From positions 159,891 through 223,890 of the forward strand of contig NZ_MSRR01000003.1 in assembly GCF_001956585.1 (NCBI RefSeq): a stretch of DNA of 64,000 nucleotides, read 5' to 3'. Numbering within the stretch: position 1 is the stretch's first letter; each line of letters begins with the position of its first letter. Below the pieces are notes generated by a model. It was not told where the DNA came from and ran no database searches. It saw only the letters and a program-made list of their open reading frames with translations. Position numbers and translations under genes: made by a program. This DNA comes from Actinomyces naeslundii (lineage in GTDB: Bacteria > Actinomycetota > Actinomycetes > Actinomycetales > Actinomycetaceae). Below are positions 2,612-7,661 of this stretch, in pieces.

Positions 2612-3493
2612 TCAGCGCCCGAGCAGACTGAGGATCCGACGACGCAGCTCACGGAACTCGTCGGTCGACTCGTCGTGCTCGGGCACGTCGATGTCGGCCA
2701 CGATGCGCGCGGGTCGCTCGGACAGGACGATCACCCGGCCGGCCAGGCGCAGTGCCTCGTCGACGTCGTGGGTGACCAGGATCGCAGTGAAGCGCTGGGA
2801 CTCCCATAGCTTGATGATCTCGTCCTGGAGCTGGAGGCGGGTCAGTGCGTCGAGCTTGCCCAGAGGCTCGTCCAGGAGGAAGAGCCGGGGCCGGTTGACC
2901 AGGGCCCGGGCCAGCGAGGCGCGCTGGGCCATGCCGCCCGAGAGCGTCGTGGGGTAGGCCTCGGCGAAGTCCCGTAGTCCCACGATCTGCAGGGCAGCCT
3001 CCACCCGGCGCTGGTCGCGTTCCAGGCGGTCTCTCGCCTCGGGGCCCAGGGCGACGTTGTCCCGCACCGTTCTCCAGGGCAGGAGCGTGGCGTCCTGGAA
3101 GGCCAGTGCCCGCAGTGGTGAGGGACCGGTGACCCGCGTGGAGTCGACCTCGACGTCACCCTCGACCGGCTGCTCGAGGCCGGCCAACAGACGCAGGATC
3201 GTTGACTTGCCGCAGCCCGAGGGGCCTACCAGTGCGACGAACTCGCCGGGGGCGACCGTCAGGTCGATGTCGTCGAGAACGGGGAGCTGGTCCGGCTTGG
3301 TCGCCTCGACCTCGTGGCGCGCCCTGGCTGAGGGGGATATGCGTCGGAGCAGAAAGTGGAGCCAGCCATGGTCCAGGTCGCGGGACACGGGGTAGCGGTG
3401 GGTGACGCCCCTAAGGTCGACCTTCGCGCCTCGGGAGGCGGATGGATCTGGAGCCTGGAGCGTGCTTTCGACTGTTGTGGAATCGGCAGACAC
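2612..3493 (-). CDS. ABC transporter ATP-binding protein (SsuB/TauB/NrtD class)
   Basis: Energises import of an alkanesulfonate-, taurine- or nitrate-type solute at the cytoplasmic membrane face. 293 aa with Walker A GPSGCGKST (residues 90-98), signature LSGGMAQ (about 184-190), Walker B LFLLDEP (about 204-210) and a His-switch region ILVTHDVDEA. A ~65-residue N-terminal extension precedes the usual domain start. The GTG start at 3493 lies 4 nt after the permease stop, with GAGG overlapping the permease end, so translation is probably coupled. Last gene of the three-gene operon. The Cys-codon leader upstream of the operon favours a sulfur source as substrate (inference); the family alone cannot tell sulfonate from nitrate. 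Confidence 0.88.
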   Translation of the reverse strand: MSADSTTVESTLQAPDPSASRGAKVDLRGVTHRYPVSRDLDHGWLHFLLRRISPSARARHEVEATKPDQLPVLDDIDLTVAPGEFVALVGPSGCGKSTILRLLAGLEQPVEGDVEVDSTRVTGPSPLRALAFQDATLLPWRTVRDNVALGPEARDRLERDQRRVEAALQIVGLRDFAEAYPTTLSGGMAQRASLARALVNRPRLFLLDEPLGKLDALTRLQLQDEIIKLWESQRFTAILVTHDVDEALRLAGRVIVLSERPARIVADIDVPEHDESTDEFRELRRRILSLLGR

Positions 3494-3497
3494 CGGT

Positions 3498-4565
3498 TCA
3501 CCACCTCACAAGGTTCTGCTGCCATGCCAGCAGCGAGGAGCGGATCTTGAACAGCAGGACCATGAGGGTGCGGCAGAAGGCCACCAGAATGATGAGGGCC
3601 ACGTACATCCTGGGGTAGTCAGCCCAGCCCTTGACCCAGTTGATGTACCACGCCAGTCCCTTGTCGACACCGGTGAGCTCGGCGGTCATGAGGGCGGCGA
3701 GCGAGGTGCCCAGGCCCGTGAACAGGCCGGTGAGCATGTCGGGCAGGGCCGAGGGCACGGCCACCCGCCGGATGAGGAAGAGCTCGTCGGCTCCCAGCGT
3801 GCGGGCCATGTCGATGTAGTCGCGGCGCACGGAGCGCACGCCCGCACGGGTCATGGTCGCCATGGGGAACCAGGCGCCGAAGCCCACGATGAAGGCCGCC
3901 GAGGCGTACGTCGTCGGGAGCAGAAGCAGGGCCAGTGGAAGGAGAGAGGCCGCAGGAACCGGACCGATGGTCTGCAGGAGCGGATGGAGCCAGTAGTCGG
4001 CGCGCCTCGACCAACCCATGAGCAGTCCCGTGAAGAACCCCAGCACCGATCCCGCTGTGTACCCGATGACGAAGAGCAGGGCGGAGGCCCCCAGGCAGCT
4101 GAGCAGCAGCCTCCAGTCACCGGCGAAGGACGCGATCAGTACCTCTGGGGCGGCGAAGTACGGGGGCGCGAGCAGCCCCAGCTTGGAGGTCGTCAGCTGC
4201 CAGACGATGAACCAGGCGCCGGCAGCGTTGATCCAGGGCAGGTAGTGCGCCAGCGCGCTCGCCGCCGCCGAGGCCGGACGTCTCCAGGCGCAGAAGGTCC
4301 ACGCGGTGAGCACCACCAGCCAGGTGCCGGCGAGAACAGTCAGCGGAGTGGTCGGTGCCCGGCGGAGAAGGCCCGCGTCCGGAAGCAGGACGACAATGAC
4401 CGGGTAGACCAGCCACAAAGACAGTGCGGTCGTTGTCCACAACGATGTCGAGGAGAACCGACGACGTGCTGGTGCCTCGGGCCTGGTTGCCGAGGAGCTC
4501 GGTTCTGGACGCTTCTGGTCACCGCGCTCGGTTGGTGTGGCTGTGGGTCTGGTATTGGTGAGCAC
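3498..4565 (-). CDS. ABC transporter permease (SsuC/TauC/NrtB class)
   Basis: Membrane-spanning channel of the importer. 355 aa: a Ser/Pro/Arg-rich cytoplasmic head (~35 residues), two extra N-terminal hydrophobic segments (around 45-65 and 75-95), then the binding-protein-dependent permease domain with about six membrane helices. The cytoplasmic EAA-like loop is near MARTLGADELFLIRRVAVPSALP. GTG start at 4565, 6 nt after the binding-protein stop, with AAGGA inside the upstream gene. Longer than typical SsuC (~260 aa) because of the N-terminal helices. Confidence 0.86.
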   Translation of the reverse strand: MLTNTRPTATPTERGDQKRPEPSSSATRPEAPARRRFSSTSLWTTTALSLWLVYPVIVVLLPDAGLLRRAPTTPLTVLAGTWLVVLTAWTFCAWRRPASAAASALAHYLPWINAAGAWFIVWQLTTSKLGLLAPPYFAAPEVLIASFAGDWRLLLSCLGASALLFVIGYTAGSVLGFFTGLLMGWSRRADYWLHPLLQTIGPVPAASLLPLALLLLPTTYASAAFIVGFGAWFPMATMTRAGVRSVRRDYIDMARTLGADELFLIRRVAVPSALPDMLTGLFTGLGTSLAALMTAELTGVDKGLAWYINWVKGWADYPRMYVALIILVAFCRTLMVLLFKIRSSLLAWQQNLVRW

Positions 4566-4571
4566 TGGCCA

Positions 4572-5723
4572 TCAGTCCTTGATGCCGAGATCGGCGACGA
4601 CCGCGTTCGTCAGGCTCTGTGCGGAGACGTCGGAGGTGATGAAGCCGGTTGTCTTGAACTTCTCGATGCCAGGCTCGATCGCAGCGCGGAACCTGGATGC
4701 CGAGGCCTTGAACCCATAGGTCTTGAGCACTCGGACGACGACGTCCTGGTCCGCAGCCACGTAGTCGTTGTCGACCTCGATCTTGGCGATCTCATCGATA
4801 TGGTCCGGCACGTAGGCCGAACCCTTCAACCAGGCCTCAGTGAGAGCCTTGGCCTCCTTGGGCTGCTTCTTGACGAAGTCGCCGTTGAGAGCCACCGAGC
4901 AGCAGAACTCCTCAGCGTCGTTGTTGGCCAGCTCTCGGGCCGTGCCGTTGAAGACGGGAAGCAGCGGCGCGGGGTCGGAACCCATGATGGCGTCCACCTG
5001 CCCGTCGGCCAGAGCGGTTCCCAGGGAGTCCGCATCGACCGTGCGCCAGGTGATGTCGCCGCCGTCGGGGTCGACGTTGATACCGGCCTCGGACAGCCCG
5101 ATTGCGAAGTAGGCGAAGGCCGATGACGACAGTGACGGAACACCGATGGTGGTGCCCTTGAGATCTGCCAGGCGATGGTACTGGGAGTCCTTGCCCACCA
5201 CCAGACGTAGGCAGCCGGCGTGAAGTCCTGCCGTGAGCCTGGCATTGAGCCCGTTGTAGATCGGCTCCAGCCAGGAGAAGAAGATGCCGGGGGCGCCGAT
5301 GTACTTGCCTGCGCCCACTCCGTCCTTGGTGTCCTCGGTCTGCTGGGTACGCGCAAGGGTCACCTTCAGACCCGCGTCGTCGAAGAATCCCTTGTGGTAC
5401 GCGGCGTAGAGCGGAGCGGCGCAGATGTCTCCGCCGATCACCAGGGGGAGCGCCTCGTGGGCCCCGATCACTCCCTGATTGGTGCGCCGGATCGTCAGGT
5501 ATGCGCCGGCACCGAGCGCGGTGGCGGCCGCCAGGCCACCGACCGTCAGCAGCGTGCGCCGCGAGGGTCTGCTGCGGCGAGGTGCCTCAGCATCTGGGCC
5601 ATCCGCGTCGTCGTCCGCAGCAAGTATCTCCGCTGCGTTCTCGGCGGTGACCTCGTCCTTCTTAAGAAGGGACGAATCTGATGAGGATGAGGCGGAAGAA
5701 GGGGAGGGGACGGTCTTGGACAT
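4572..5723 (-). CDS. ABC transporter substrate-binding protein (SsuA/THI5-like), twin-arginine N-terminus
   Basis: Extracytoplasmic solute receptor. 383 aa from ATG 5723, chosen because a strong AGGAG lies 5 nt upstream. An unusually long polar N-region (~54 residues) is followed by SRRTLL and a hydrophobic stretch (about 58-77), fitting a Tat signal or a non-cleaved anchor. No lipobox Cys is present. The mature part has the NMT1/THI5-like fold start GGDICAAPLYAAYHKGFF and the two-lobed binding-protein pattern. First gene of the importer operon. The substrate is unknown; a sulfonate-type compound is inferred from the leader ORF. Confidence 0.85.
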   Translation of the reverse strand: MSKTVPSPSSASSSSDSSLLKKDEVTAENAAEILAADDDADGPDAEAPRRSRPSRRTLLTVGGLAAATALGAGAYLTIRRTNQGVIGAHEALPLVIGGDICAAPLYAAYHKGFFDDAGLKVTLARTQQTEDTKDGVGAGKYIGAPGIFFSWLEPIYNGLNARLTAGLHAGCLRLVVGKDSQYHRLADLKGTTIGVPSLSSSAFAYFAIGLSEAGINVDPDGGDITWRTVDADSLGTALADGQVDAIMGSDPAPLLPVFNGTARELANNDAEEFCCSVALNGDFVKKQPKEAKALTEAWLKGSAYVPDHIDEIAKIEVDNDYVAADQDVVVRVLKTYGFKASASRFRAAIEPGIEKFKTTGFITSDVSAQSLTNAVVADLGIKD

Positions 5724-5950
5724 GGTGTCTCCTAGGAAAAGGAATGGGACGGGAGAGAACCGAACAGGTTGGCTAGGAATACGGCTCAGGTGTGCAGACG
5801 CGTGATCGCAACAGCAATTTCCTGTGGCGTTAGTCGACGAGGACGACGAGAGCCTGTGAACGGCATCGGGATCGTCGTGGCTCAGCGGCTCATGAGACAC
5901 CGGCGCAGTGGCGGTTCTACGGCATCGCGCAGCCGGAAAGCGGGAGCTCA

Positions 5951-5969
5951 GCCCGACGTTGCCTCGGGC
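5951..5969 (-). other. Small hairpin in the importer leader RNA
   Basis: GCCCGA...TCGGGC, a perfect 6-bp stem with a 7-nt loop, lies in the ~300-nt leader between the Cys-codon ORF and the binding-protein gene. It could be part of the attenuation switch. No classical T-tract terminator was found in this leader. Confidence 0.35.
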
Positions 5970-6037
5970 GTTCCACAGCGGTCGATCTTTACCAAGGCAT
6001 CATTCGGCTTCAGGCGCCAGAGGTGCACCGGGGTGAA

Positions 6038-6136
6038 TCAGTAAGGCCGACAGCAACAGCACATTCGCGCGCCACACATGACCGCGAGCGCTTGAGCGCC
6101 GGAGGCGGTAGTGGTCCTCAGAGCGATGTGCATCAT
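6038..6136 (-). CDS. Leader peptide with four tandem cysteine codons (putative cysteine attenuator)
   Basis: A 32-codon ORF on the minus strand starting ATG ATG and ending with codons for M-C-C-C-C-R-P-Y then TGA. The four adjacent Cys codons (TGC TGT TGC TGT) occupy roughly 6050-6061; a fifth Cys is a few codons earlier. The -10-like box TAGGGT ends 7 nt before the first ATG, so the transcript should begin at the start codon (leaderless). Polycysteine-coding leaderless small ORFs act as cysteine-responsive attenuators of sulfur genes in mycobacteria (established). Here the ORF precedes a sulfonate-type ABC operon on the same strand, with ~310 nt of leader between. An alternative internal start would give a 13-residue peptide with the same Cys run. 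Confidence 0.7.
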   Translation of the reverse strand: MMHIALRTTTASGAQALAVMCGARMCCCCRPY

Positions 6137-6162
6137 GGGCGACACCCTACGCCATGTCGCCC
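6137..6162. promoter_or_regulatory. Leader-ORF promoter region with inverted repeat
   Basis: On the minus strand TTGCAT then TAGGGT form candidate -35/-10 boxes just before the leader ORF. The perfect inverted repeat GGGCGAC...GTCGCCC (7-bp arms, 12-nt spacer) encloses the -10 box. It could be a repressor operator. No regulator gene is adjacent. Confidence 0.4.
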
Positions 6163-6263
6163 GGAAGAATGCAAGCTCATTTTCCCGTACGGTCCGTCGC
6201 TGGTGAGCCGTGACCGGTCGCTGTTACAGGCACTGCAGCCGATAGGGGCCGTGCGACGTCGGA

Positions 6264-6275: not shown

Positions 6276-7661
6276 GTGAGCGGTATCCGTCCTGACGATG
6301 TTCTGGTGCGCGAGACCCGGTGGCGAGAGCTGACGTCGACCCCCGTGGCGCCGGGGGGCGGTCTTCTTCCTGCAGCGCCGGCATGGTGGCCGCGGAAGCC
6401 CGACGATGATGCCCTCGCGGCCGCGGCGGCTCGTGGCACCCCGGTGCTGGGGGAGACTCGCCTTGTTGATGGCGTCACGATGCGCGAGGCGACCTTCCTG
6501 TGGTGCGACGATCGACGGCATGGTGAGAGTCCCAGTGTGCTCATCCACCTCAACACGCTGACGGACAATCACCGCACGCACATTGTCCCGGCTCTGGCCA
6601 ACCGGGTCCCGGGAACCGGGTGGTGGGCGCTTCATGTCCTGCTGCCGGATGACGCCCTTGTGGGCTATCGGATCGTGGTGACGCGTGATCGGTTGCCCGA
6701 CGACGTCGGGGCGCGACGGGAGTGCTGGAAACGCGTTCACGCCGAAGGACGCCCCGATGCCCTCTGCCCCGATCGACTGCATGACGGCTTCGGCTTCGTC
6801 TCCTCCCTGTGGGAGGGGCCGGGAGCTGTCACCCACCCGGAGTGGTCGGTGGCGTCGGCCGAAGGCGTGATGGCTGCGCCCAGCATTGACCCCAGCGGCG
6901 GAGGGTACGGATACAGCGTTGAGGTCGGCGGCGGGGCCCTCGACGGCTTCGATGCTCCTGGCGACTCCGCGCGACGCATCACCCTCTGGCAGCAGGACTG
7001 CTGCGGCGGCTCGGACGGAGGCCGGCGGGAGCGGGGACAGGATCAGGGGCGGGGACTGCTGGTTCTTCTCGACGGCGAGATCTGGCGCCGCAACGACGTC
7101 GTCCGCAGGCTTGGCGCCAGAGCGGCTTCCTGGGACCTGCTGCTCATCGACTCCGGGAGTCTAACCATGCGTGCGCGCGACCTGGCAGATCCTCATCGCA
7201 GCAGGGAGCTGGTGATCCGGTGCCTTGAGGCGGTGCGAAGCCTTCGGCCACCGTGCGACCCGCAGCGGGTGGTGGTGGCCGGTCAGTCCCTGGGGGGTGT
7301 GGCCGCTGCGGATCTCGTCCTGCACCGCCCGGATGCCGCTGCTCGTGCCATCTGCCAGTCGGGCTCCTTCTGGCTGGGGTCAGGCCGCAGGGGCGAAGGG
7401 GAGGGAGAGCTCCTGGCCTGGTTGCGCCGTCGAGGTGAGCAGAAGCCGTCTGAGCCGGTGCCGGCCCGCCTGGTGGTTCAGTGCGGCGTGCACGAGGGTG
7501 TGTTGCGCACGGGCGGGCGCCTGGCCGCTCAGCTGCTCGCGGCCCAGGGGGCTCTGCTGGAGTACCGCGAGGAGCGCGGTGGCCATGACTACGCCTGGTG
7601 GCGTCACGGGCTGTCCTGGGGGCTCGACGTTCACGAGCAGGATCTTCCTTATTGCCCGTGA
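6276..7661 (+). CDS. Enterochelin esterase (Fes)-family siderophore hydrolase
   Basis: Predicted to cleave ferric trilactone-type siderophores in the cytoplasm and release iron. 461 aa: an N-terminal Fes-like domain (WWALHVLLPDDALVGYRIVV region), then an esterase-D type alpha/beta-hydrolase domain. The nucleophile elbow is GQSLGG and the His motif GGHDYAWWRHGL is close to the GGHD-W pattern of Fes; an acidic residue between them completes the triad. GTG start at 6276 has TAGGGT 6 nt upstream (6264-6269) and no Shine-Dalgarno, so leaderless translation is expected. Monocistronic. Siderophore identity cannot be told. Confidence 0.8.
   Translation: MSGIRPDDVLVRETRWRELTSTPVAPGGGLLPAAPAWWPRKPDDDALAAAAARGTPVLGETRLVDGVTMREATFLWCDDRRHGESPSVLIHLNTLTDNHRTHIVPALANRVPGTGWWALHVLLPDDALVGYRIVVTRDRLPDDVGARRECWKRVHAEGRPDALCPDRLHDGFGFVSSLWEGPGAVTHPEWSVASAEGVMAAPSIDPSGGGYGYSVEVGGGALDGFDAPGDSARRITLWQQDCCGGSDGGRRERGQDQGRGLLVLLDGEIWRRNDVVRRLGARAASWDLLLIDSGSLTMRARDLADPHRSRELVIRCLEAVRSLRPPCDPQRVVVAGQSLGGVAAADLVLHRPDAAARAICQSGSFWLGSGRRGEGEGELLAWLRRRGEQKPSEPVPARLVVQCGVHEGVLRTGGRLAAQLLAAQGALLEYREERGGHDYAWWRHGLSWGLDVHEQDLPYCP

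Follow-up and report, generated by a model that had tools for sequence, protein, structure and literature searches.

In Actinomyces naeslundii, a 32-codon ORF ending in a run of Cys codons precedes the genes of an ABC importer, and this locus raises the question of whether the ORF controls the importer in response to cysteine. Here, we have examined the locus in the window (that is, the whole 64-kb stretch of DNA that was analyzed) and compared it with importer loci of related genomes. The leader observation is real and beyond chance. On the basis of these comparisons, the leader is probably a cis-acting cysteine-responsive attenuator of the importer operon.

Leader ORF and its surroundings in the window

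The initial annotation had described a 32-codon ORF ending in Met-Cys-Cys-Cys-Cys-Arg-Pro-Tyr-stop, preceded by TAGGGT-N7-ATG and followed, approximately 310 nt later, by the binding-protein gene on the same strand. Direct reading of the minus strand bore out this description. The translation is MMHIALRTTTASGAQALAVMCGARMCCCCRPY*, running from the ATG at 6136-6134 to the stop at 6040-6038; TAGGGT (6149-6144) lies 7 nt 5' of the ATG, and 314 nt separate the leader stop from the binding-protein ATG at 5723. Coordinates of all features are shown in Table 1.

Table 1. Features of the leader and importer locus in the window
Feature	Position	Strand	Basis or remark
-35-like TTGCAT	6169..6174	-	19 nt ahead of -10; read directly
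-10 element TAGGGT, leaderless-type start	6144..6149	-	7 nt 5' of leader ATG
Leader ORF, 32 codons	6038..6136	-	Read directly; conserved in relatives
Four successive Cys codons TGC TGT TGC TGT, proposed control codons	6050..6061	-	Read directly
Leader 3' end from final Cys codon through stop; 5' strand of predicted switch helix	6038..6054	-	RNAalifold
Predicted partner of leader 3' end, TTGGTAAAGATCGACCGC	5978..5995	-	RNAalifold
Shine-Dalgarno AGGAG of binding-protein gene	5729..5733	-	Read directly
Substrate-binding protein, NMT1/SsuA/NrtA/CmpA superfamily	4572..5723	-	PF09084 (3.7e-15), TIGR01728 (below cut-off), fold
ABC permease	3498..4565	-	PF00528; SaoP/SsuC-like below cut-offs
ABC ATPase	2612..3493	-	PF00005; best NCBIfam match sulfonate ATPase, below cut-off

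The TTGCAT hexamer and its spacing were identical in the eight nearest relatives and looser in the other loci, and a scan with the sigma-70 consensus called no promoter at the leader. The window leader had no match in Pfam, and six importer leaders and one cysK leader had none in NCBIfam at E values up to 10; it should be noted that HMMER filters may drop such short peptides. Rfam gave no match at the gathering score in the window and none for one importer locus (L002) in a relaxed search.

Approximately 140 bp from the leader start, a divergent gene (6276-7661, plus strand) encodes an enterochelin-esterase-like protein (PF11806; NF007758 below its cut-off), so that a possibly siderophore-related gene shares the intergenic region with the leader.

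Leaderless-type start and chance expectation

The TANNNT/TANSGT-N7-ATG signature is a plausible mark of leaderless starts in A. naeslundii, as judged from the genome sequence. In the whole genome, TANSGT-N7-ATG was found at 57 sites and the reversed control pattern at 29. Frames of at least 80 codons were opened at 37 of the 57 sites and shorter ORFs at the other 20, among which the leader was the sole one with at least two Cys in its last 12 residues. Within the 64-kb window, both strands together held two ORFs of 20-45 aa after TANNNT-N6/7-ATG, and only the leader had Cys among its last 12 residues. When the 800-nt upstream regions of the importer loci were shuffled (mononucleotide shuffles, as were those of the spacers described below), an ORF with at least two Cys in the last 12 residues appeared in 0.09% of 5600 trials, compared with 28 of 28 real regions. 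A genome search for three consecutive Cys codons found fewer places than the control pattern did (276 vs 975).

Conservation of the leader across Actinomyces

The binding protein could be identified in 28 of 49 genomes of the genus and, among 213 genomes of the family, in the same number, every one of them within the genus. A contig scan found 11 loci, nine from Actinomyces and two from distant Actinomadura (30% identity across a portion of the protein). In one genome (G028, 82% complete), the binding-protein match was split in two pieces.

All 28 importer loci carried a leader with a Cys-rich end and a leaderless-type start, as selected by a filter requiring at least one Cys among the last 14 residues, which favors an attenuator. 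The start signature was TANNNT-N7-ATG in 27 loci and had N6 in the remaining one. The leaders comprised 25 distinct sequences of 31, 32 or 39 codons, began 316-529 nt 5' of the start of the binding-protein match and contained two to six Cys in their last 12 residues; an SD-like motif preceded the binding-protein start in each of the 28 loci. The longest Cys run was four in five genomes, three in four, two in sixteen and one in three, and positions 26 and 29 were Cys in all twenty 32-codon leaders.

It had been anticipated that the Cys run and the stop would be kept in relatives while the rest of the ORF drifted. Relatives did keep the stop, the frame, a Cys-rich end and two individual Cys positions, but not the four-Cys run itself, which occurred in only 5 of the 28 leaders, nor was there a contrast with the rest, since the last eight codons drift about as much as the others. 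Differences between near relatives affected 61 of 208 compared codons in the last eight and 161 of 599 in the remainder, which argues against an attenuator. Nonsynonymous and synonymous differences numbered 36 and 25 in the last eight codons, 102 and 59 in the rest, and 138 and 84 overall. The ORF is a predicted Cys leader of mycobacterial anatomy, conserved in relatives with the same downstream gene, and its conservation, in many genomes along with a complementary RNA block farther 3', suggests that the importer may be switched on when cysteine runs short.

Cys codon usage

Cys accounted for 129 of 912 leader codons, compared with 105 of 9767 codons of the binding-protein genes in the same 28 loci. 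The choice of Cys codon also differed: leaders used 92 TGT and 37 TGC, whereas the binding-protein genes used 2 TGT and 103 TGC (Fisher p 2e-31 for the TGT excess, calculated on pooled, related sequences). Both observations favor an attenuator. Per clade, the ratio of TGT to TGC was 40:7, 10:1 and 42:29 in the leaders and 1:35, 0:12 and 1:56 in the genes, and five window genes together contained 24 TGC and zero TGT. Control codons are often rare codons. Since pairing of the leader RNA also constrains codons, part of the TGT excess could stem from RNA structure.

Predicted pairing of the leader end in 16 genomes

A long-range pairing partner of the control codons was most clearly predicted in clade 2, which comprises 16 genomes whose leaders end in C-x-x-C-Q-[AV]-x. 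In all 16, the leader end GCUGUCAGGC and its neighbors could form 10-14 contiguous pairs with a GCCUGRCAGC block located 46-112 nt 5' of the binding-protein start. Each of the 16 spacers had a single copy of the CCTGRCAG motif, which the other 12 lacked. When contiguous stems were ranked against 200 mononucleotide spacer shuffles, 13 of the 16 genomes ranked at 0 or 1 and the others at 4, 16 and 21. This score was used instead of duplex energies allowing bulges, for which real and shuffled spacers were indistinguishable.

RNAalifold, applied to the clade 2 alignment, predicted this helix and no other. A second short helix would form between GUCCG, which directly follows the stop, and CGGAC, located 3' of the partner block. 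With both helices, 93.1% of cells were paired, compared with at most 34% when the helices were slid, and covariation was 0.140 vs 0.079 in shuffles (0 of 500), which ignore relatedness, a point that weighs against the attenuator. One pair varied between G-C, A-U and U-A and another between U-A, U-G and C-G, and a G-C pair of the second helix became C-G in two genomes. Two of the five measures were less favorable to the pairing. Four pairs changed on both sides, but 75 of 500 shuffles reached this number, and 146 reached the observed number of pair types. In 4 of the 16 genomes, the second helix is broken at one to three of its five pairs, and own partners were only slightly better than foreign ones (mean -27.6 vs -25.4; 14 sequences), which also speaks against.

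Predicted pairing in the window and the other 12 genomes

The 12 genomes outside clade 2 include nine of the window clade and three with 39-codon leaders. In two sub-alignments, of four and five genomes and with the window among these nine, RNAalifold paired the last codons and stop of the leader with sequence approximately 45-70 nt 3' of the stop. The first sub-alignment consisted of the window copy and three near relatives, with 16 pairs counted; in the window copy, the helix 6038..6054 / 5978..5995 has one mismatched pair and one bulge. The fractions of cells paired were 95.3% and 96.9%, for structures derived from the same sequences. Covariation was not above that of shuffles in either sub-alignment, and own partners were no better than those of other genomes across the 12 genomes; both results argue against an attenuator. 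Stem ranks out of 200 were 138 (window), 3, 77, 33, 58, 107, 104, 157, 176, 133, 34 and 9, the values of 3 and 9 belonging to G045 and G008 and the other nine besides the window lying between 33 and 176. Pairing of the leader end with 5978..5995 in the window itself is offered as a suggestion from the folding model, weaker than the clade 2 helix.

Proposed mechanism and alternatives

According to the preferred explanation, transcription would start at the leader ATG, and 70S ribosomes would translate the leader. With plentiful charged Cys-tRNA, the ribosome would finish and leave, the leader 3' end would pair with the downstream partner and the importer genes would be kept low. Under cysteine shortage, the ribosome would stall at the Cys codons and cover the leader 3' end, no pairing could form and the operon would be expressed. 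The paired form is assigned to the OFF state because cysteine shortage would be expected to raise the importer.

The step blocked by pairing is, as a first guess, Rho-dependent termination in the long untranslated spacer, because no U-tailed terminator was seen and mean predicted SD access did not change. Regarding the former, a simple scan of 5600-6250 detected no G+C-rich hairpin with a U run (though shuffles gave just 0.4), and a classical attenuator with an intrinsic terminator was rejected. The segment 5' of the SD has more C relative to G than the remaining spacer. Such a C-rich, G-poor segment before the SD is suggestive in that it would suit Rho; as C-rich segments are common near starts too, it was left out as evidence for Rho.

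A more specific version of the attenuator is that Actinomyces possesses a long-range RNA switch, with the Cys control codons as one strand of a helix and with a second helix that competes with the first or completes a pseudoknot, serving a genus-specific cysteine/organosulfur importer. The partner of the control codons would be located 115-245 nt 3' of the leader stop in one clade and close to that stop in another. We regard this version as possible, although still doubtful. As one strand of the predicted covarying helix consists of control codons and the other of a distant block, paired mutations would test the mechanism directly.

The same leader and signal might instead have a translational output, the stalled ribosome opening a structure that hides the importer start. 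M. smegmatis cysteine genes are cited as translation-attenuated in the available part of PMC13236596, and, with the leader blocked, predicted access of the start region went up (0.24 to 0.39) in G005, G032, G009 and G030. However, it dropped in G011, G015 and G025, and mean SD access was unchanged over 26 folds: by clade, the values without and with the leader blocked were 0.14 and 0.17, 0.30 and 0.30, and 0.22 and 0.24, which speaks against SD sequestration as a general output, an option that folds of the 26 sequences do not support. Moreover, the partner lies 46-112 nt 5' of the start in the 16 genomes of clade 2 and 254 nt 5' of it in the window. A translational output is rather unlikely on these predictions.

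Another explanation is that the leader serves simply to bring in ribosomes or to maintain translation of the 5' end, the Cys codons having no regulatory role. The same signature does open frames of at least 80 codons at 37 of its 57 genomic sites, but ribosome delivery would not account for Cys being 13 times as frequent in the leader as in the gene, for the preference for TGT or for the covarying helix, and 314 nt would seem long for a hand-over, which together make it quite improbable. Least probable of all is a functional Cys-rich micropeptide, binding metal or redox-active and acting in trans: all 28 leaders keep the frame, with lengths confined to 31, 32 or 39 codons, and each of the twenty 32-codon leaders has Cys at the same two positions, but the number and spacing of Cys vary (two to six in the last 12 residues), nonsynonymous codon differences exceed synonymous ones (138 to 84), and the leaders encode Cys mostly by the rare TGT, in codons that are predicted to pair with downstream RNA in 16 genomes.

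Importer genes and substrate

On the basis of profile searches and fold, the importer could be assigned to the SsuA/NrtA/CmpA/ThiY superfamily. The binding-protein model was matched with equal scores to binders of nitrate, bicarbonate and sulfonate, and identification as the aliphatic sulfonate-binding protein SsuA (TIGR01728) was rejected at 66.9 bits against a curated cut-off of 163.5. It is the leader, and nothing else at the locus, that would point to sulfur scavenging as the role of the importer. The Cys leader may accordingly serve as a lead to a substrate that sequence and fold leave open.

At its N-terminus, the binding protein was modeled with low confidence over a long stretch that bears a twin-arginine-like signal (SRRTLLTVGG), with no lipobox Cys by eye. 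A signal of this kind lacking the lipobox Cys is unusual for a Gram-positive binding protein.

We also examined related genes for similar leaders. Two other NMT1-family proteins of the same genome had no Cys leader in the same scan, which favors the attenuator, and the sulfate-assimilation cluster of that genome had no comparable leader ORF over 9 kb, which argues against it. SsuA-family proteins above the cut-off were present in 17 of the 213 family genomes, and their 17 upstream regions contained no leaderless Cys leader, the gene there possibly not being the first of its operon. Short ORFs with at least three Cys in the last 12 residues were seen in G107 and G007; they had no leaderless-type start and were taken as chance. 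Two of the genus genomes in which the present importer was not found, G007 and G026, contain SsuA-family proteins above the cut-off with no leaderless Cys leader (C1:1067974-1068834 and C1:1932014-1932874, respectively).

Comparison with known Cys leaders

Polycysteine upstream ORFs of leaderless mRNAs were first seen in mycobacteria as candidates (PMC4633059), and leaderless polycysteine ORFs that respond to cysteine have since been described there (Canestrari 2020, cited in PMC13236596, PMC9031893 and PMC9094748), as stated in the portions of these papers available to us. Another study (PMC1262725) predicted Cys leader peptides ahead of cys operons in Mycobacterium and Propionibacterium acnes and ahead of cbs in Bifidobacterium longum; A. 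naeslundii is in the genome list of that paper, whose accessible text names no Cys leader for the species. In the literature considered, as far as these partial texts go, cysteine attenuation is documented in mycobacteria and only predicted elsewhere. The available sections of PMC4833913 and PMC5784534 contain nothing on cysteine leaders, and no paper on Cys leaders in Actinomyces was among the matches listed in literature searches.

By anatomy, the Actinomyces element appears to resemble the mycobacterial cysteine attenuators. As far as the accessible descriptions allow, both have a conserved short ORF with a leaderless-type start, terminal Cys codons and genes on the same strand, and for both, control by cysteine supply is proposed. 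The Actinomyces leader differs in genus, in its ABC importer target and in a spacer of about 185-330 nt, and, unlike in the mycobacterial leaders, the predicted partner of its Cys codons is not at the SD. With the leaders in the available text of PMC1262725 it shares a short ORF, Cys runs near the stop, the lack of a conserved terminator and the suggestion of Rho-dependent termination, whereas its target is an importer and not biosynthesis genes. Compared with known Cys leaders, three things are new: the genus, the kind of gene targeted and the predicted covarying helix that joins the control codons to a downstream block.

A second Cys leader upstream of cysK

A Cys leader was also present 5' of cysK in 28 of the 30 loci that were read, which favors an attenuator. 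It resembles the importer leader in its genus, often in the very same genomes, and in its Cys-rich end, and it lies approximately 185-330 nt before the cysK match, a distance similar to the importer spacer. Unlike the importer leader, it is led by a Shine-Dalgarno sequence and has tails such as CCCQCR or CCRCR. TGT made up 43 of 122 Cys codons in the cysK leaders, a count that includes one wrongly chosen ORF. The leaderless version at the importer and the SD-led version at cysK across Actinomyces point to a cysteine regulon.

Five cysK loci searched against Rfam were unmatched. In 27 of the 30 loci, including G000 L079 (minus strand 2578-2702), a near-invariant long hairpin began at or beside the stop of the cysK leader, with the consensus GRGCGCC.GGC ... 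GUGCGCG ... CGCGCAU.GCC.GGCGCUC; from its sequence, this hairpin looks like a separate attenuator RNA.
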